Origin: Bdellovibrio sp. 22V
Lineage (GTDB): Bacteria > Bdellovibrionota > Bdellovibrionia > Bdellovibrionales > Bdellovibrionaceae
DNA length: 64,000 nt
Assembly (NCBI RefSeq): GCF_030169785.1
Contig: NZ_CP125854.1
Coordinates: forward strand, 1,860,001 to 1,924,000
Direction of reading: 5' to 3'
Of this stretch, positions 11,558 through 53,352 are shown in pieces. Position 1 is the first letter of the stretch; each line of letters starts with the position of its first letter. Made by a program: the position numbers and the translations under genes. Below the pieces are notes generated by a model, which did not search any database, was not told the DNA's origin, and saw only the letters and a program-made list of their open reading frames with translations.

Positions 11558-13285
11558 TCAAGGTTTTCGGATGTAATTCAAGAAGGCGATCATGCCAAGA
11601 ATAATGGCGAGGGCGTAACCGATAAAGCTGATTGTCGGAACGCCTGCAATATGGCTGACGGTATCGTGTACAAAAATATAAGAAGAACTAAGGATCAAAG
11701 CTGCGATAATGACGCCTAAGAAAAGTAAATTCGAGGAGCTTTCAACAGAGCGTTTCAGTTCTTTAATTTCACCGACTTTTAATCGAAAGGCATGGTCGGG
11801 ACTGTTTACTTTTCTAAGAAAGAAGTTCAGTTGGCGCGGTAAAGAGTTTAAAAACGCTTTCGATTCTCGCGCCATTTGTGTCATGTCGTTCATCACGCGC
11901 TGGGGGCCGTATTGAGTCTTGGCCAAATCTCCGGCGAATTCCAAAGAGTACTGCAGGAAATCGAAGTCCTTTTGAATCTTGCGGCCCATACCTTCAATGG
12001 AAACGATGGATTTAAAGAACAGCATCAAATCGGTCGGTACATGCAAATGATGTCGAGCCGCGATGCCTGAAGACTTCATCAGGATTTTTCCAAGATTCAC
12101 GTTTTTAAGAGTTAATCCGAAATAAGGCGCAATCAACTCGCGCAGATCTTTGGCAAAGAGGTCGACGTTCACCCGATCCGTGAAAGGCGCAAGATCCACG
12201 TACTCGTAGGCCAAGCGTTCGTAATCTTCCTTGGATAGAGCTAAAAGCATATTGGCGATAGCGGATTGAGTGCGCACATTCAAACGGCCTACCACGCCGA
12301 AATCAATCAAACCAATTTGATTTTGGGGAAGAACAAAGAAATTTCCAGCGTGCAGATCCCCGTGAAAAAGACCGTCTTCGAAGACCATTTTTAGATAGGC
12401 ACGAAGACTGCGGCGAATGACTTCGCTAGGATCAATGTTTTCTTGGCGTAAAGAACCTTCCTGCGAAAGGGGAATGCCGGGAAGCAGCTCCATCACAAGT
12501 ACTCGCTCTGTCGTTAAGTCGAAATAGACCTTAGGAATTTTGATGTGTTCGTCTGCGGCGAAATTTTCTTGGAAGCGACGGATATTATTCGCTTCGACAA
12601 CGAAGTTCGTCTCCAGCTCTAAAGTTCTAAAATATTCGTCGACGATGCCGGTAGGATTGTACGGGCGTGACTCTGGTACGTACGTCACAAGCAGATCGGC
12701 GAGCAGGTAAAGGACATTTAAGTCGTCGTTGATAGTTTGAATAATTCCTGGACGCTGTACTTTAACGACAACGTCTTCGCCCGTTGCGAGGCGGGCTTTG
12801 TGCACTTGAGCGATGCTGGCAGAGCCTAGCGGAGTCGGATCAATACTTTCGAACTTTTGGTAAAGCGAATTGCCAAATTCTTCTCTTAAGACGGATTCAA
12901 CAACTTCAAATGAAAGAGGCTGCACGCGATCATGAAGTTTTTCGAATTCAGCGACATATTCGTCGGGAACTAAATCGGGACGGGACGCGAGAAGCTGACC
13001 AAGTTTTACGAAGGTGGGACCGAGCTCTTCAAAACTGATACGCAGACGCTCTGGCATCGAAAGTCTTTCGATGTCAGAGGCCGTGTTAAGTCTTTCAATA
13101 ATGAACTTACCGAGCTTTACCTTTTCCGCGACCTGGTGAAACCCGTGCTTTGCGAACACTCCGACGATCGTTCTCAGTCTTCCCGCGTTTTTGAGAGTCT
13201 TTCCGATCTGGCTTCCGGTCTTTAAGGCTGTCACTATTCTTCTCCGAATAGTCGTTATTATCTCGGAGTTTAGACTGTTCGGCAA
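11558..13285 (-). CDS. UbiB/AarF/ABC1-type atypical kinase
   Basis: The 575-residue protein has the UbiB family marks: KxGQ-like FVKLGQLLASRPDLVP (about 93-108), the Ala-rich loop ASIAQVHKA, the Lys in VVVKVQRPG, the catalytic-like HGDLHAGNFF and the metal site LIDFGVVGR. Two membrane helices close the C-terminus (about 520-572). Family members act in ubiquinone synthesis or lipid handling at the inner membrane. Its first 60 codons overlap the 3' end of rnr by 179 bases in another frame. The overlapped part holds the conserved RTIVGVFAKHGF region, so a shorter start is unlikely. The LysR gene follows 10 bases downstream. Confidence 0.9.
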   Translation of the reverse strand: MPNSLNSEIITTIRRRIVTALKTGSQIGKTLKNAGRLRTIVGVFAKHGFHQVAEKVKLGKFIIERLNTASDIERLSMPERLRISFEELGPTFVKLGQLLASRPDLVPDEYVAEFEKLHDRVQPLSFEVVESVLREEFGNSLYQKFESIDPTPLGSASIAQVHKARLATGEDVVVKVQRPGIIQTINDDLNVLYLLADLLVTYVPESRPYNPTGIVDEYFRTLELETNFVVEANNIRRFQENFAADEHIKIPKVYFDLTTERVLVMELLPGIPLSQEGSLRQENIDPSEVIRRSLRAYLKMVFEDGLFHGDLHAGNFFVLPQNQIGLIDFGVVGRLNVRTQSAIANMLLALSKEDYERLAYEYVDLAPFTDRVNVDLFAKDLRELIAPYFGLTLKNVNLGKILMKSSGIAARHHLHVPTDLMLFFKSIVSIEGMGRKIQKDFDFLQYSLEFAGDLAKTQYGPQRVMNDMTQMARESKAFLNSLPRQLNFFLRKVNSPDHAFRLKVGEIKELKRSVESSSNLLFLGVIIAALILSSSYIFVHDTVSHIAGVPTISFIGYALAIILGMIAFLNYIRKP

Positions 13286-41787: not shown

Positions 41788-42327
41788 TTACTCAGCAGAA
41801 AGAGGAGACACGTTTGTTGTGCGTCCGCCGCCATTATTGCCATTCACAATGTTGTGACCTGGAAGCTGCATTTGCGGCATGTACTTTTCGCCTTGTTCAA
41901 GCAAAGACAAGTGGGCTTGCGCCAACGCCTTCAAGTTTGCTTCAAACTGCAAGCGAGCACGTTTCAACTCTGTGACTTCTTGATACATTTTTTTCAATGA
42001 ATCGCGAGAGTCGCGAGTGATGATTTCCGCTTTTTGTTGAGCATCTGCGATAATTAGTTTAGCTTCACGGTCGGCGTCTTGGCGAAGACGTTCCGCCATT
42101 TGCGTTGCTGTCGCGATAGTGTCTTTAAGGACTTGATCGCGCTCTTTATATTCCATCAAGGAAAGTTCTTTTTCGCGAATGGCCTCTTTGAGGGAGTTTC
42201 TCTCTTGAATAAGAGCTTCCATTTGCGATGCGATCTGCTGGAGGAAATCCACAACCTCATCAGCGTCCAAACCCATCATCTTTTTTCCGAAAGACTTGTG
42301 AGCAATGTCGATAGGAGTAATTCTCAT
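41788..42327 (-). CDS. DivIVA-domain protein
   Basis: The 179-residue protein has the DivIVA N-terminal motif RITPIDIAHKSFGKKMMGLD, ADEVVDFLQQI (about 2-32) and a long coiled coil (about 35-150). The tail is Gly/Asn-rich (NGNNGGGRTTN). DivIVA proteins bind curved membrane and organise poles or septa. It sits in the yggS-proC cluster, as in Gram-positive ylm clusters. AGGAGG lies before the ATG. Confidence 0.88.
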   Translation of the reverse strand: MRITPIDIAHKSFGKKMMGLDADEVVDFLQQIASQMEALIQERNSLKEAIREKELSLMEYKERDQVLKDTIATATQMAERLRQDADREAKLIIADAQQKAEIITRDSRDSLKKMYQEVTELKRARLQFEANLKALAQAHLSLLEQGEKYMPQMQLPGHNIVNGNNGGGRTTNVSPLSAE

Positions 42328-46550: not shown

Positions 46551-47459
46551 ATGGGAAGTGCAGAGTTAATGCTCATTCTAGGATTGCTGCTCGCAGGAGT
46601 GGCCGTCTTCCTATTTGTCAGCTCTATCTTCGCAAGTAATGCCGACAAACAACAGCTTTCCTGGGCGAACAATGATGAACCGGCAAAATCAAAAAATCCG
46701 GTGATCAATTTCTCGCGTCCGCTTGTACATCAGTTCACTTTGCAGCACGCCATGAGGATTCGCAGTGAAGGCTATCGCAAACGCGTCCGTAAATACATTC
46801 TTACTTCGGGTCTTTCGCGCGAGTTGAACGAAGATGAATTCATTGGGTTGCAGCTGCTTTGGGGTATCATGTTCCCCATTTTCCTTTTGATCATGAACTT
46901 CTCGCTGCAGTTGGGACTGTCGCCGATGATGGTGATGGGTATGGGACTCATTGGTTTTTATCTTCCGCAAATCCATGCGAAAGGTGAAAAGAAACGCCGC
47001 GAACTTTCTGTCCGTGCGGATCTGCCTTTCTTTATCGATCTTTTGGCGTTGTCGGTGGAAGCGGGTTTGGACTTCTTCTCTGCAATTCAAAAAATCGTGG
47101 ATAAAGCTTCCGGTACAGACAGCGTTCTGGCCGACGAGCTGGGAACAGTTTTGAAAGATATCAAAATCGGTGCTTCCAAAGCGCAAGCTTTGAAGGACAT
47201 GGCAGAGCGTTTGGATATGAACGAGATGACAAGTTTCGTGGCGGTCTTGGTGGATGCCGAGTCGACGGGCGCAAGTATCTCGCAAGTATTGAAAGATCAA
47301 TCCGTGCAAATGCGTTTGGAAAGATTCGTGCGTGCGGAAAAGGCCGGTGCGCGAGCATCGCAAGCGATTCTTATTCCGTTGATGGTGTTTATCCTTCCAG
47401 CGGTATTTATTATTGTATTCGGTCCCGTGGCCGTGTCGTTCATGTACGGGAATAAATAG
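46551..47459 (+). CDS. TadC-like type II secretion F-domain membrane protein
   Basis: The 302-residue inner-membrane protein has an N-terminal helix (about 4-26), two close helices (about 102-145) and a C-terminal helix (about 272-296). The T2SF domain between contains LPFFIDLLALSVEAGLDFFS and the E-rich DAESTGASISQVLKDQS, as in TadC of Tad pilus assembly. Here it opens an operon of FHA proteins, with no TadA, TadB or pilin beside it. Its stop is one base before the next start. Confidence 0.85.
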   Translation: MGSAELMLILGLLLAGVAVFLFVSSIFASNADKQQLSWANNDEPAKSKNPVINFSRPLVHQFTLQHAMRIRSEGYRKRVRKYILTSGLSRELNEDEFIGLQLLWGIMFPIFLLIMNFSLQLGLSPMMVMGMGLIGFYLPQIHAKGEKKRRELSVRADLPFFIDLLALSVEAGLDFFSAIQKIVDKASGTDSVLADELGTVLKDIKIGASKAQALKDMAERLDMNEMTSFVAVLVDAESTGASISQVLKDQSVQMRLERFVRAEKAGARASQAILIPLMVFILPAVFIIVFGPVAVSFMYGNK

Positions 47460-47460
47460 T

Positions 47461-47811
47461 ATGATGACAGCGTTGCAGAATAAAACGACAAATCAAACAT
47501 TGATTCCGAAGCTGGAAGTGGCTCGCTCTTTTGCCGCGCGCGGAAAAGGTTTGTTGGGACGTTCGTCTTTGGCGGAGGACCAAGCCTTGTGGATTCTTCA
47601 TTGCAACAGCATTCATACTTTCTTTATGAAGTTTTCAATTGATTGTGTTTTTGTAGATAAGAACTTAAAAGTGAAGGCGGTCTATCAAGACGTCCGTCCT
47701 TGGCGATTGGTCCTTCCTGTATGGGGAGCCAGTTCCGTCATCGAAATGGCTTCAGGCTCCGTCAGCAAGATGAAACTCAGCGTGGGAGATCAACTTTATG
47801 TGGGCGCTTAG
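47461..47811 (+). CDS. DUF192-family protein
   Basis: The 116-residue protein starts at tandem ATGs just after the TadC-like stop. It has the DUF192 pattern: VARSFAARGKGLLGRSSL, LWILHCNSIHTFFMKFSID and VFVDKNLKVKAVYQDVRPW. Most family members carry a signal peptide; this one does not, so it is probably cytosolic. It overlaps the first FHA gene by 14 bases. Function unknown. Confidence 0.85.
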   Translation: MMTALQNKTTNQTLIPKLEVARSFAARGKGLLGRSSLAEDQALWILHCNSIHTFFMKFSIDCVFVDKNLKVKAVYQDVRPWRLVLPVWGASSVIEMASGSVSKMKLSVGDQLYVGA

Positions 47812-49465
47812 AATTTTGACCGGCCCGCAAGCGGGACAAATTATAGAATTAAAAATGGGGAAAAACCTGATTGGTCGGGCACCTCAATGTGATATCAAAC
47901 TTGTGAGTCCTGGTGTTTCTAAAGAACACACGGAAGTTTCCGTCTTCAAAGAAAAGATTGTGATCACGGATTTGAAATCCAGCAATGGAACTTATCTTAA
48001 CGGGATCCGTATTCAAAATGGTTTGATGCGTTTAGGAGATAAACTGGGAGTTCACGATATTCTTGTCGACGTGATTCCAGCTCCAGAGATACGTGCGCAG
48101 AACACACGTTCTACGGCGACGAATACAGGTGTGCCGGCGCCAATGCCTTATTATGGCGGTGGGGCTGCTCCGCAAATGCCGCAACAAATGGGGATGCCGC
48201 ATGGAATGCCTCAGGGCATGCCGCAGCCCATGGCCGGAATGCCCGGAGCGGGTCCCGCGCCAGCACCGGCACCCGCTTATCAACAAGGTGGCTTAAAAGG
48301 TCTTCTTGATAAATTGAATGACTATTTAGATCGCGTGGCTCTGCCGGGCGTTTATAAATTGCCGCAATTCTTAGAACTGAAAATGGTTCTGTTAGGGTTT
48401 GTGGTTCTCTTCATTTTTTCAACGACACTTTTATCGATGATTCCGATGGTGCAAATCACACGCGCCAGTATCATCAACGAAAGCAAACGTCGTGCAGCCT
48501 CCATCGCACGTACGGTGGCTACAATCAATCAAGCGGCGCTTTTACAAAACAGTTATTCTTCATTGAGCACCAATGCCGCAGAAGCGGAAGATGGTGTAAA
48601 ACAAGTTCTAATTGTGCAGCAGTCAGACGGTATGATCCTCGCTCCGGCGACACGCGCGGGGACGACACCGGATCTGCCGTTCGTGCATTCGGCTCGTCGC
48701 GAAATGCGACCGCAGGCCGTCGAGGTGGACTCGTCTACCATTGGCGCAAGTTTTCCGATTGGCTTGTTTGATCCGAATACGGGTGAGCAGTCAGTAAAGG
48801 CGCATGCGATCGTGCTTTACGATATTGGCAGCTTAGCGTTCGACGACGGTCGTGCGATCAGTTTGTTCATGCAGACTTTAGTGATCGCTTCTTTGATTGG
48901 GCTGATTATTTACTTCTTTATGTATAAGCTGATCGAGTATCCGCTGGTTTCTCTCAATACGCAGTTGGATATAGCGATGCGTGAAAAGAAAGACAACACC
49001 GAAGTAGACTTTATGTTCCCGCCTTTGCAGGCGTTGATCGGCAATATCAACAGTTTGCTTACGCGGTATATTCACGGAGAGACCGACAGCGGTTCGCCGG
49101 GAGCCGCGGGCTTTGTTAATAAAGACGGAGAAGCGGAAAATCTGGTGCAGTTGATCGGCTTCCCAAGTATCGCGATTTCCAAAGAGGGTCGCATTATCGC
49201 GTGCAGTCCCGCGTTTGCTCAAGTAGCGCGCGCGGAAGTGGCGCAACTGCAAGGCCAGCTTTTTAAGGCGATTCCGGATGTGGCTTTGCAACAGAATATC
49301 GACGGTTTGATGGTGCGCACGCGTGAAAATCCGCGCGCGATTCACACCGATCAGCTCGAGTTTAGCGGTCATCTTTGTATTTTAAGCTGTCAGGCTTTTG
49401 CGACAGGACAAGAAGTGGATTACTACGTAGTGACAGTGTCACCCACTGATGGCGGAGGCTCTTGA
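47798..49465 (+). CDS. FHA protein with two membrane helices and a PAS-like domain
   Basis: The 555-residue protein has an N-terminal FHA domain (about 5-90; GRAPQCDIKLVSPGVSKEHT, DLKSSNGTYLNG), a Pro/Met/Gly linker (about 105-165), a membrane helix (about 197-217), a periplasmic region (about 220-345), a second helix (about 352-372) with a HAMP-like part, and a C-terminal PAS-like domain (about 450-540; GFPSIAISKEGRIIACSPAF). FHA domains bind phosphothreonine. It is probably a membrane sensor. It is coupled to the genes on both sides by overlaps. Confidence 0.85.
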   Translation: MWALRILTGPQAGQIIELKMGKNLIGRAPQCDIKLVSPGVSKEHTEVSVFKEKIVITDLKSSNGTYLNGIRIQNGLMRLGDKLGVHDILVDVIPAPEIRAQNTRSTATNTGVPAPMPYYGGGAAPQMPQQMGMPHGMPQGMPQPMAGMPGAGPAPAPAPAYQQGGLKGLLDKLNDYLDRVALPGVYKLPQFLELKMVLLGFVVLFIFSTTLLSMIPMVQITRASIINESKRRAASIARTVATINQAALLQNSYSSLSTNAAEAEDGVKQVLIVQQSDGMILAPATRAGTTPDLPFVHSARREMRPQAVEVDSSTIGASFPIGLFDPNTGEQSVKAHAIVLYDIGSLAFDDGRAISLFMQTLVIASLIGLIIYFFMYKLIEYPLVSLNTQLDIAMREKKDNTEVDFMFPPLQALIGNINSLLTRYIHGETDSGSPGAAGFVNKDGEAENLVQLIGFPSIAISKEGRIIACSPAFAQVARAEVAQLQGQLFKAIPDVALQQNIDGLMVRTRENPRAIHTDQLEFSGHLCILSCQAFATGQEVDYYVVTVSPTDGGGS

Positions 49466-50640
49466 TGAGTGCGGCTCCGCAAGTGAAAGACACTTTGAAA
49501 TTCGATATTGAAATCGTGAAAGGGCCGCACATCGGTTTTAAGGCGACCTTTACGAAAGCCTCCGTGTCCATTGGTCGTGGGCCGGAGAACGATATCGTTT
49601 TGTCAGGTGATCCACGCGCAAGTCGTCAACATGCCGAGATCAAACAGCGTGGTAACGAGTTTGTGATCGTCAATTTGAGTCAGAAGAATTTCATTTTGGT
49701 GAATTCTCAGAACGTTCAGTCTGAAATTCTCAATAATGAGTCTGTGGTTCAAATTGGTGATACAGAAATTCGTTTCCACATGGAAATGCCGACGCCCGCT
49801 CCGACACCGGCTGCCCCAACGGCATCCATGCCGGCGGCAGCGCCAACACCATCTCCGATTTCGAGTTCGATTCTAAAACCGCAAATGCCACAGCCGATGC
49901 CGGCCCAAACACCGGCATTCCAGCAACCTCGACCTATGCAAACGCCGACAATGAATCAAGGTGGTTTGCCGTCGATGCCGTCCGCCTCTATGCCTCCGGC
50001 GCAGCCGATGCAATATGGTGGTTATCAGCCGCCACCATCAGGACCTACACCGACAATGGGAGTTCCGCGAGGAGCCTCATCGGGCGGAGGTCTTATGCAA
50101 AATCCGAAAGCAAGATTCTATGGAATCGTTGCGATCGTGGCTTTGGTCGGATGGTTTTTGCTGTCACCGTCCAAAAATGGCGAGAAAAAGGATCCGAATG
50201 CATTCCGGACTTCCGCAATTTCCATGCAGGACGTCGCAGATGCAGAGAAACGTTCTCAGGAACTTCTCACAATCAAAAAAGAAAAATATGATTCCGTTCA
50301 ATATCGCCGGGCCCAAGAAAACTTTATTAAAGGGTTCCGCGACTTTCAGCAAGGTCAGTACGCAAGAGCTCGCGAAGCTTTCCAGGTTGTTTTAAACTTA
50401 GATCCTGAAAATGAATTGGCGAAACGTTATTATCATCTCGCTAAAATTAAGTTTGATGAACTGGTGAAGTTCAACATGATTCAAGGCAACCGCTATAGAG
50501 AAAAGAAGAACTGGAGAATGTGTCAGTCCAATTACTCGAACGTTATGACCATGCTTGCAAATCGTAAAGATGATCCTAGTTATAAAGAAGCAAAACAGTT
50601 CTTTGAAGAATGCACGTTGAATTTGGAGGGTCGTTTCTAA
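49462..50640 (+). CDS. FHA protein with one membrane helix and TPR-like C-terminus
   Basis: The 392-residue protein has an FHA domain (about 12-105; IGRGPENDIVLSGDPRASRQ, HAEI), a Pro/Met/Ala/Gln-rich linker (about 112-208), one membrane helix (about 216-234; FYGIVAIVALVGWFLL) and a helical TPR-like part (about 285-385; FQQGQYARAREAFQVVLNLD). The FHA side is cytosolic and the TPR side periplasmic. It overlaps the previous gene by 4 bases and the next by one. Confidence 0.87.
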   Translation: MMSAAPQVKDTLKFDIEIVKGPHIGFKATFTKASVSIGRGPENDIVLSGDPRASRQHAEIKQRGNEFVIVNLSQKNFILVNSQNVQSEILNNESVVQIGDTEIRFHMEMPTPAPTPAAPTASMPAAAPTPSPISSSILKPQMPQPMPAQTPAFQQPRPMQTPTMNQGGLPSMPSASMPPAQPMQYGGYQPPPSGPTPTMGVPRGASSGGGLMQNPKARFYGIVAIVALVGWFLLSPSKNGEKKDPNAFRTSAISMQDVADAEKRSQELLTIKKEKYDSVQYRRAQENFIKGFRDFQQGQYARAREAFQVVLNLDPENELAKRYYHLAKIKFDELVKFNMIQGNRYREKKNWRMCQSNYSNVMTMLANRKDDPSYKEAKQFFEECTLNLEGRF

Positions 50641-52661
50641 TGGCACGTCTCCGAGTTCGTCTGCGTGGAAAACCTGTTTACGATATCACTCTTTCGGAGG
50701 ACCGCTCCTACGTCGCGGGCCGCAAGGAAGACTGTGATATTGTTTTACAGCCGGAAAAAGGGATTTCACGCGAGCATTTTAAAGTTTCTTTCGCGAATGG
50801 CGTTTGGAGCGTAGAAGTTGTTTCCCGTTATGGAGAAGTCATTCATAACGGCGAGCAGGTTCAGCAGTTTAACCTGGATCACGGCACACAGTTTTCAATT
50901 CCTCCTTATGAATTCGATTATTTGAATACGACGGATGATGTTGCCGCCGTTCATCAAGGAACCTCCTCGAATCTTCCCGCAGTAAGCGGAGAAGGCGAAG
51001 GCTTCGACGGCAGTGAAGAAAAAACTGTCATCGGGGTCGCGCCGACGGCGGCTTATATTAAGATCGTGGATTCACAGAACGAAGCCAAGGAATTGATCCG
51101 TCTTGATGAAGGGGATTCTTGGGTAGCGGGACGTGATCCGAACTGCCAGATTCATATCAAAGATCAACGCGTCAGTCGTCGCCAATTTGAGATTCGCAGA
51201 GCGGGTTCTCAATATGTGATTCTGGATTTGGGGAGCGTGAATGGAACGCTTCTCAACGGGACTCCGATTTCTTCTTCGGAGCCGACGCCTATTAAAAGTG
51301 GCGATGCGATCAGCGTTCTAGAAAACTATTTGTACTTTGAGTTGCATGATTCTCATTTCCAAAGTCGATTGGAAATGGTGAACGTAGCGCCGCCGAATCC
51401 GCTGGTTCCTATGGGCTCGGATTCCGTGCCTATGGAATATCAGCAGCAGATGTCTCACGAGTTGATGCCTTACCAAAATCATGGCGGTATGGCTCCGGTG
51501 CCTTACCAACAGCAGATGCAATATCCTGCGATGGGTGGCGCAATGCCGGGGCATGCTCCGGTAGAAACAGGTAAGTTTGATTTTCAAAAGAATCGCCCGA
51601 AAATTATCGGTGCCGCTGTTTTACTGTTGGCGCTAGCGTATTTCTTTAGTGGCGGAGAGAAAAAACCTCCTGCGCCGGCGCCGGGCAGTGCTTCTGCTCC
51701 GGGTTCTCCGCAAGAGGCATTTGCGAAATTAAAACCTGAACAACAAGCTTTGGTTCGTCAGCGCTATAAAGACGCCAAGAATCTTTACATGCAAGGAAAG
51801 TATCAGCTTGCTCAAGATGAGATCATCAAAATTCAGGAAGTAATTCCTGATTATGAAGATATCAAAGAAATCGAACGTCTTTCCAAAGAAGCGATCTTCA
51901 TTCAAGAGCAGCAACGCCGTCAGGAAGAGATCGAAAAAGCGAAAGCGGAGACGGAAGAAAAAATCCAAAAACAAACGGCGGAGTGCCAGAAGAAAATCAA
52001 TCCTTCAATTACGATGGCCGATTTGGATGAATGTTTGTCCTCTGTGTTGCAGTTCAATCCAGAGCATCCGCGCATCCTTGACTTGAAAGCGCAAGTGGAG
52101 TCGATCAATGCGCAAAGAGAAGCCAAGGAAGCGGAGCGCATAGCTTATCAGTCGCAGGTTTCGAAATTGCGTAATTTGTTTGATCGGGCTCAACAAGTGC
52201 ATAAAAAAGGCAAACCTTTGGATGCGATTGCGGCTTACGAGAAAGTGATCGACGCAAGACTGCCGGATCCAAATGGTTTCAAAGGTCAGTCGAAGAGGAA
52301 TATTGCTTCCATCCGCCAAATGATGAACTCGAAAACAGCCAGCCTTCAGGCGGAAGCGGAAAAGTTTTATCAAGCTCAGAACTTACGAGGCGCCATTACC
52401 GCTCTTCGTAAAGCGCGCATGTTGGATCCGACAAATCCAGAATTGCCCGAGAAAATCGAACGCTATGTCGTCGAACTTCGCAAGCAGATGATGTCTCTTT
52501 ATCAAGAAGGTATTCTTGAAGAGAGCTTCGGTAACGTTGATGGAGGCGAGTCGAAGGCCGGTGCCAAAGACAAGTGGAAGAAGATTCTCGAACTCGATAT
52601 TCCGGACGGAGAATACTACAAGAAGGCTTACATCAAGTTGAAGAAATACGGAGCTCTGTAA
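50640..52661 (+). CDS. protein with two FHA domains, one membrane helix and TPR-like tail
   Basis: The ATG at 50640 shares its A with the upstream stop and gives 673 residues. FHA 1 (about 1-95; GRKEDCDIVLQPEKGISREH) and FHA 2 (about 140-240; GRDPNCQIHIKDQRVSRRQF, DLGSVNGTLLNG) lead to a Met/Gln/Pro-rich linker, a membrane helix (about 320-337) and a long charged, helical region with TPR-like repeats (about 370-670). It looks like a duplicated relative of the preceding FHA protein. It ends one base before the PP2C-like gene. Confidence 0.87.
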   Translation: MARLRVRLRGKPVYDITLSEDRSYVAGRKEDCDIVLQPEKGISREHFKVSFANGVWSVEVVSRYGEVIHNGEQVQQFNLDHGTQFSIPPYEFDYLNTTDDVAAVHQGTSSNLPAVSGEGEGFDGSEEKTVIGVAPTAAYIKIVDSQNEAKELIRLDEGDSWVAGRDPNCQIHIKDQRVSRRQFEIRRAGSQYVILDLGSVNGTLLNGTPISSSEPTPIKSGDAISVLENYLYFELHDSHFQSRLEMVNVAPPNPLVPMGSDSVPMEYQQQMSHELMPYQNHGGMAPVPYQQQMQYPAMGGAMPGHAPVETGKFDFQKNRPKIIGAAVLLLALAYFFSGGEKKPPAPAPGSASAPGSPQEAFAKLKPEQQALVRQRYKDAKNLYMQGKYQLAQDEIIKIQEVIPDYEDIKEIERLSKEAIFIQEQQRRQEEIEKAKAETEEKIQKQTAECQKKINPSITMADLDECLSSVLQFNPEHPRILDLKAQVESINAQREAKEAERIAYQSQVSKLRNLFDRAQQVHKKGKPLDAIAAYEKVIDARLPDPNGFKGQSKRNIASIRQMMNSKTASLQAEAEKFYQAQNLRGAITALRKARMLDPTNPELPEKIERYVVELRKQMMSLYQEGILEESFGNVDGGESKAGAKDKWKKILELDIPDGEYYKKAYIKLKKYGAL

Positions 52662-52662
52662 A

Positions 52663-53352
52663 GTGAAGTTGCAAGAACGTTCGTACAGCACCAAGATCAT
52701 GCGTCCCAAGCCGGCGATCCATCAAGAAGACGACGGTTCTTTGATTGTCATTGCCACATCATGGGGACAGCCTGAGCATGCACAACGCGCGATGGACGAG
52801 GTCGTTAAATACGTCAACGCCGCGAAGTCCGACGTGGAAGTCACGTCTCCGTTTGAATTCTTAACCTGCCTTTCAGATGAAGTGAACTATGTGCGCACGG
52901 GAATGCTGATTGCGAATGACATCCTCTATCGCGGTGAAAACAAGATGGAGTATTTCTCGGGCGTTGAAATTTTGGCTCTTTTTAAAAGGGGCCAGCAAGT
53001 CGCGTGGGGCCAGGTGGGTTGTCCAAGTCTTTTTATTCAAAGAAAAAATCAAAGCCTGCAACCTTTGTCGATCGGTTTGGATCTGTCTAGCGAGCTGCCT
53101 GTGGATTCAGAGGCTTTGCCTCCGTTACCGGCGCAGCTTCTGGGGCTTGATCCGACTTGCTACGTGCAATGCGGTCACACGCATGTGCAAGACGGGGATC
53201 AATTGGTTTTGCTGGCCAGTTCGTCTGTAGCCTCTTCTTTATGGGTGCACAGCGGTCAAGCCGCTGAGTTAAGTACGATCACAAATCGCATGATTCAAGA
53301 AAGTCCCGAATCGCCGTTTTGGCTGGGACTTGTGCAAATGAATCAAGACTGA
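52663..53352 (+). CDS. PP2C-like protein without metal-binding residues
   Basis: The 229-residue protein starts at GTG one base after the FHA gene. ANDILYRGENKMEYFSGVEI, then LFKRGQQVAWGQVGCPSLFI and, near residue 177, GDQLVLLASSSVAS follow the PP2C order (helix, GxT strand, vGDSr.yl, GDxLLLcSDGL). The aspartates of the metal site (GDSR, SDG) are replaced, so it is probably not an active phosphatase. Given the FHA neighbours it may be a pseudophosphatase that reads or blocks phosphosites. The fold is inferred from motif spacing. Confidence 0.6.
   Translation: MKLQERSYSTKIMRPKPAIHQEDDGSLIVIATSWGQPEHAQRAMDEVVKYVNAAKSDVEVTSPFEFLTCLSDEVNYVRTGMLIANDILYRGENKMEYFSGVEILALFKRGQQVAWGQVGCPSLFIQRKNQSLQPLSIGLDLSSELPVDSEALPPLPAQLLGLDPTCYVQCGHTHVQDGDQLVLLASSSVASSLWVHSGQAAELSTITNRMIQESPESPFWLGLVQMNQD

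Follow-up and report, generated by a model that had tools for sequence, protein, structure and literature searches.

A run of six genes in Bdellovibrio sp. 22V sets a TadC-like membrane protein and a small DUF192 protein beside three FHA-domain proteins and a PP2C-like protein, which raises the question of whether these genes encode a device of their own or belong to a larger machine, and what phosphothreonine readers would do in it. The original prediction, made from the letters alone, described a membrane phosphosignalling assembly tied to a secretion or pilus device, possibly undescribed. The window in which the operon lies is a stretch of 64,000 nucleotides (C1:1860001-1924000, C1 being the single contig of the 3.60 Mb genome), and the positions in Table 1 are those of the window.

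A six-gene block conserved across Bdellovibrionota

Analysis of the open reading frames revealed six plus-strand genes that lie back to back from 46551 to 53352. The spacings originally given for the junctions all stood except that between FHA1 and FHA2, where the in-frame ATG is a more likely start than the TTG and turns the 4-base overlap read before into an overlap of a single base (TGATG). A promoter and terminator scan gave promoter-like sites that were not above those of shuffled sequences, and it yielded no site of use. By order, protein lengths and domains, the block matches Bd0470-Bd0475 of B. bacteriovorus HD100, of which Bd0473, Bd0474 and Bd0475 are listed as 386, 674 and 228 aa (PMC12034629).

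Table 1. Genes of the operon, with their positions in the window and their counterparts in B. bacteriovorus HD100
Product	Position	Strand	Evidence	Counterpart
TadC, T2SSF family	46551..47459	+	Pfam T2SSF, 58.6 bits (cut-off 25.2), 7.8e-16	Bd0470
DUF192 (COG1430), small soluble protein	47461..47811	+	Pfam DUF192, 73.9 bits, 1.2e-20	
FHA1	47798..49465	+	Pfam FHA, 3.5e-14	probably Bd0472
FHA2	49465..50640 (start TTG 49462 or ATG 49465)	+	Pfam FHA, 1e-14; weak TPR	Bd0473
FHA3, two FHA domains	50640..52661	+	Pfam FHA, 9.5e-29, two stretches	Bd0474
PP2C-like protein, GTG start	52663..53352	+	Predicted structure	Bd0475

The original prediction had made the idea of one functional device depend in part on this gene order being kept in related genomes. 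We searched 144 genomes of the phylum, many of which are draft bins, for TadC, FHA3 and TadZA, and gene order was read in 40 neighbourhoods and 20 further stretches. A TadC orthologue is present in all of these genomes except one (G029), and the six-gene order is preserved almost throughout the phylum Bdellovibrionota in the loci read. All six genes were found in 58 of 80 loci from named records; the rest are without some of them, and many of these lie on short contigs. Almost every locus has DUF192 flanked by TadC and FHA1, median intergenic gaps range from -14 to +2 bases both in Bdellovibrionales and in the other families, and no opposite-strand neighbours occur within the block among the loci compared. 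The claim of a tightly coupled unit is thus borne out by the order, the shared strand and the near-zero gaps that relatives keep. The Maf, ProC, sulfatase and ExbB/ExbD flanks are conserved only within the order Bdellovibrionales, and the operon is intact in families whose flanking genes differ. A DivIVA homologue (window 41788-42327) lies upstream of ProC and Maf, in a block beside the operon that is conserved within the order.

G029, a relative from the same order that is 100% complete by marker genes and assembled in about 100 contigs, contains TadZA, and no TadC, FHA1 or FHA3 orthologue was found in it; the block either fell into an assembly gap or was truly lost as a whole. One record titled Streptomyces griseus (CALQIT020000030.1) carries a Bdellovibrionales operon with a TadC that is 66% identical, and is evidently a metagenome bin with a wrong title.

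The only TadC of the genome and a split Tad locus

The other part of what would defeat the idea of one device, in the same prediction, was a Tad locus elsewhere with its own TadC. A whole-genome search returned six T2SSF matches, four of which fall on two frames of 407-408 aa near a PilB/GspE-type ATPase; the remaining two, both stand-alone and of the Tad type, are TadB and the TadC of the window. TadB (C1:1761066-1761941, about 145 kb from this TadC) is the only TadB of the genome and belongs to a Tad locus at C1:1759382-1767841 (L007 9383-17842) that also encodes two TadE-like proteins, CpaB, CpaC, a TadZ-TadA fusion and a YD-repeat protein, with the CpaB, CpaC and TadE roles assigned by sequence reading and conserved order rather than by a curated model. 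The 738 aa TadZ-TadA fusion scores 311.7 bits against a TadA-family model, which is under the cut-off of 373 but by far the best match. No TadC is encoded in this locus, which lies 139 kb from the operon, and the genome has no TadC other than the gene in the window.

Elsewhere in the phylum the two loci are joined. In at least eight other families (23 genomes, hand-counted from the TadC and TadZA search results), TadC and TadZA share a contig and are no more than about 25 kb apart, and direct reading of the joined locus gave the order TadC-DUF192-FHA1-FHA2-FHA3-PP2C-TadE-TadE-CpaB-CpaC-TadZA-TadB-YD. In three genomes of one of these families (G054, G095 and G110) the FHA3 match adjoins TadZA and TadC is found on another contig, which indicates that the FHA genes keep to the tad genes in general rather than to TadC alone. 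The operon forms the front half of a Tad (type IVc, probably Kil-type) pilus locus that is split in this genome, and because the locus is joined in many families, the gene orders suggest that the joined arrangement is likely to be ancestral. What had been read as one device tied to secretion or a pilus is indeed a conserved, pilus-linked unit with FHA readers, but it is half of a Tad locus and does not stand alone. This corrects the picture of the Bdellovibrio tad locus, the TadC half of which lies elsewhere on the chromosome; for B. bacteriovorus, the main tad operon bd0109-bd0119 is described as attack-phase expressed and FliA-controlled (PMC5430801).

In nearly all tad loci that were read that far (for example L007 9383-11035, with relatives in L066-L072, L081, L082, L084 and L085), TadB is followed by a YD/RHS-repeat protein of 550-620 aa, which is a constant, uncharacterised part of the Tad locus. 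In L066 (G003:C6, about 277783-280500) the TadZ-TadA homologue is 917 aa long, the YD-repeat gene comes directly after it and a separate TadB was not called; this homologue is possibly a TadA-TadB fusion. The genome of Bdellovibrio sp. 22V also contains an orphan CpaF/TadA-type ATPase of 368 aa on the minus strand (C1:1304439-1305545; L166 16440-17546), beside which no other Tad genes and no FHA receptor occur in the stretch read, and which is possibly the bd3307 cpaF named in PMC3818213. About 11 kb away lies an FHA gene that encodes an FHA-sigma-54 activator of the NtrC type (L166 4602-5852), which adds one more FHA reader to this genome.

Predicted membrane FHA proteins and a PP2C fold that has lost its metal ligands

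Pfam matches and hydropathy agreed with the earlier placement of four FHA domains on three predicted membrane proteins. The predicted structure of FHA1 (64 sequences, mean pLDDT 86) comprises an FHA domain, a proline-rich linker, a TM segment, a CitA-like periplasmic domain, a second TM segment and a PAS domain, and hydropathy places the two TM segments on either side of the sensor domain. Residues 1-95 correspond to a canonical FHA domain (GarA, OdhI and the FHA domain of Bdellovibrio DgcB at Z about 17-19), residues 218-348 match the CitA sensor domain (1p0z; Z 14.2, rmsd 3.0 over 122 residues) and the C-terminal part is PAS-like, with Pfam PAS matches in up to 8 of 64 relatives, so that the PAS-like part claimed at the outset is supported by both structure and relatives. 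On this model FHA1 looks like a receptor that crosses the membrane twice and has an FHA domain where a kinase would stand. FHA2 features an N-terminal FHA domain, a proline-rich linker, one TM segment (about residues 216-237) and a TPR-like C-terminal part, and FHA3 features two FHA domains, one TM segment (about residues 320-340) and a TPR-like C-terminal part; the TPR parts that had been claimed are present in these two proteins as weak Pfam matches.

The linker between the FHA domain and the TM segment of FHA2 includes a long proline-rich stretch with QPPPSGP (window 49780-50110). GYF-like domains are of a type that binds proline-rich peptides. One such domain is reported in Bd0075, the partner of Bd0474 (PMC12034629).

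Residues G26, R27, S41, H44, D58, N63 and G64 of FHA1 are 99-100% conserved both in the order and outside it, and by sequence this domain matches the core pattern of phosphothreonine binding (GR, S-x-x-H, N-G). Within the order, GR and S-R are largely kept in FHA2 and in both FHA domains of FHA3. The second FHA domain of FHA3 keeps GR, S and N-G with a variable His (Gln in the window), and within the order FHA2 and the first FHA domain of FHA3 keep GR and S-R-x-H, but not the N-G part.

The PP2C-like protein of the window has no Pfam or NCBIfam match. Its predicted structure (56 sequences, pLDDT 93.6) revealed a complete PP2C fold, with tPphA at Z 20.5 over 212 residues, Stp1 and PstP at about Z 19 and PppA of the P. 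aeruginosa T6SS at Z 18.0. A family profile that includes outgroup members reaches tPphA at 1e-20 and PppA at 5e-17 by sequence, an order-only profile still reaches tPphA weakly (E 0.0026), and Pfam PP2C_2 is matched by 14 of 33 family members. The metal-ligand motifs are distributed unevenly: among 17 sequences from other families, 15 have DGxGG and 9 have (S/T)DG, whereas neither occurs in any of the 67 sequences from Bdellovibrionales. The corresponding positions of the window protein are T32/S33, S186 and S214, of which the S214 position is less surely aligned, and residue counts over the 56-sequence alignment show no Asp at either metal-ligand column. Since the motifs are gone from all 67 sequences, the Bdellovibrionales protein is probably a pseudophosphatase with a PP2C enzyme as its ancestor; loss of the motif has also begun in a few other lineages. 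The term phosphatase-like therefore fits the fold, but in this order catalysis is very probably absent.

The genome encodes three clear Ser/Thr kinases, all of which are unlinked to the operon. No HRD-type kinase motif, and thus no linked PpkA-type kinase, was found in any neighbourhood examined, and the surroundings of the operon, as far as they were inspected, showed no kinase, Tad ATPase or pilin, as the original prediction had it. A weak Pkinase match at window 12269-12526 was considered as a linked kinase and rejected, as it belongs to an ABC1/UbiB-type protein (window 11558-13285), which genome scans match weakly to protein kinases.

A proposed phosphothreonine-reading layer, its rivals and named systems

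Earlier work on B. bacteriovorus shows that Bd0470-Bd0475 are active in attack phase and that predation requires them (PMC6561027, PMC12034629, PMC3818213), and names tadC as one of the type IVb genes with lowered expression in host-independent strains (PMC3818213). An insertion in tadC (Bd0470) blocked attachment, killing and rounding, and an insertion in Bd0474 abolished killing and rounding with prey attachment kept; both were complemented (PMC6561027). Bd0474 binds Bd0075 in a two-hybrid test, and AlphaFold-Multimer predicts pairing for Bd0473-Bd0475 (PMC12034629). The early suggestion that the assembly was possibly undescribed is therefore only partly right, because the published tadC and Bd0474 insertions abolish prey killing. 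Bd0475 is called hypothetical in the parts of published work available to us, which yielded no description of the joined locus, of the receptor layout of Bd0472 or of the PP2C nature and decay of Bd0475, and no other report of an FHA/PP2C module in Tad loci came up in a search that misses most subscription journals. The place of the operon in an originally single tad locus, the transmembrane sensor and the dead phosphatase thus appear to be new.

We consider it probable that the operon supplies the front half of the Tad pilus together with an FHA-based layer for sensing and phosphothreonine reading, which has a non-catalytic PP2C partner. A mechanism is proposed where TadC and TadB, the physical pairing of which we infer from their family, would form the inner-membrane platform, and FHA1-3 would act as an integral, conserved control layer of the pilus machine. 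The CitA-like periplasmic domain and cytoplasmic PAS domain of FHA1 may sense a signal that is probably tied to prey contact or to the state of the envelope; phosphothreonine marks, for which the three unlinked Ser/Thr kinases of the genome are candidate writers, would be read by FHA1, FHA2 and FHA3 on their partners through their FHA domains, and the platform would be recruited or switched as a result. The periplasmic TPR parts could hold FHA2 and FHA3 in an envelope complex, and the PP2C-fold protein, which was presumably an active phosphatase in ancestors, may now serve as a non-catalytic binding partner. The pilus would act after attachment, and the phenotype of the Bd0474 mutant, which attaches and does not kill, fits such a post-attachment step. 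Loss of attachment sets the Bd0470 phenotype apart from that of Bd0474, which leaves room for the FHA layer to act by routes besides the platform. A more specific version is tentative and has somewhat less than an even chance of holding: the Tad pilus of Bdellovibrionota could have a built-in contact sensor, FHA1, that signals to phosphothreonine readers at the platform, with an ancestral PP2C switch that is now a pseudophosphatase in Bdellovibrionales. If this is true, a kinase-unlinked, T6SS-like control layer operates inside a type IV filament machine.

The main rival is a purely structural reading of the FHA proteins, by which their domains would be protein-protein modules of a scaffold, the TPR parts would replace TadD and TadG, and no phosphosignalling would take place. 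The FHA domains also match Pfam Yop-YscD_cpl above cut-off and PscD/YscD structures are among the structural matches of FHA1, which speaks for this reading; the lack of a linked kinase, the PP2C partner without metal ligands and the absence of TadG, RcpB and TadD from the Kil system (PMC8460266) point the same way. However, the phosphothreonine-contacting Arg, Ser and Asn/Gly hardly vary in FHA1 and are for the most part retained in the second FHA domain of FHA3, and a pure scaffold would have no need of them. The sensor-type periplasmic domain and PAS domain of FHA1 and the DGxGG motif that the phosphatase keeps in most outgroup families also speak against the structural reading, and we regard it as unlikely.

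Far less credible is the view that the operon serves general signalling in the envelope or in attack phase, has no tie to tadC beyond standing beside it, and exerts its effect at another site, for example via Bd0075 or Bd3743. That Bd0474 binds a TPR protein, Bd0075, from outside the known Tad loci (PMC12034629) and that Bd0474 mutants attach whereas the tadC mutant does not (PMC6561027) would suit this explanation, but the linkage of FHA and tad genes is phylum-wide and includes genomes in which the FHA gene is beside TadZA and not TadC. A new kind of secretion or pilus device, separate from Tad, which the absence of a Tad ATPase, secretin or pilin near the operon in this genome might suggest, is rejected, because the only TadC of the genome is here and other families have the operon joined to a complete Tad locus.

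The Kil literature presents it as an open question how predators detect contact with prey and go on to build the Tad/Kil pilus (PMC8460266). On the preferred reading of a sensing and phosphothreonine-reading layer, the receptor FHA1 (probably Bd0472), the two FHA adaptors and the pseudophosphatase are first candidates for prey-contact sensing, and as these candidates travel with the pilus genes across the phylum, the question can be tested by single gene removals.

The closest named system is that of M. xanthus, where Kil is a Tad-like machine encoded in two clusters (mxan_3102-3108 and mxan_4648-4661) with many FHA proteins (PMC8460266, PMC12075869) and where its authors propose an upstream contact signalling cascade (PMC8460266); Kil-like systems have already been reported in Bdellovibrionales (PMC8460266, PMC12075869). 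Compared by published description, the two systems share Tad components spread over two chromosomal clusters, FHA proteins (three are linked to Tad genes in the loci we read) and a need in prey killing. They differ in that the FHA genes of M. xanthus sit with CpaA, CpaC and CpaF, whereas here they sit with TadC, and in that KilF itself carries an FHA domain, whereas the ATPase here is fused to TadZ.

An FHA reader and a PP2C-type protein in a contact-dependent machine also recall the T6SS, the PppA of which is matched at E 5e-17 and Z 18. The T6SS threonine phosphorylation pathway consists of PpkA, PppA and Fha1/TagH. Unlike that pathway, the present locus lacks a linked kinase, has three FHA proteins where the T6SS has one, includes an FHA protein of receptor type and carries a phosphatase that is apparently inactive in this order, and it belongs to a Tad pilus instead of a T6SS. 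SctD/YscD of the T3SS inner-membrane ring resembles the FHA proteins in its layout of a cytoplasmic FHA-like domain, a TM segment and then a periplasmic part. The FHA-like domain of SctD/YscD is thought not to read phosphothreonine, whereas the canonical phosphothreonine residues are kept here, and the periplasmic part is CitA-like in FHA1 and TPR-like in FHA2 and FHA3.
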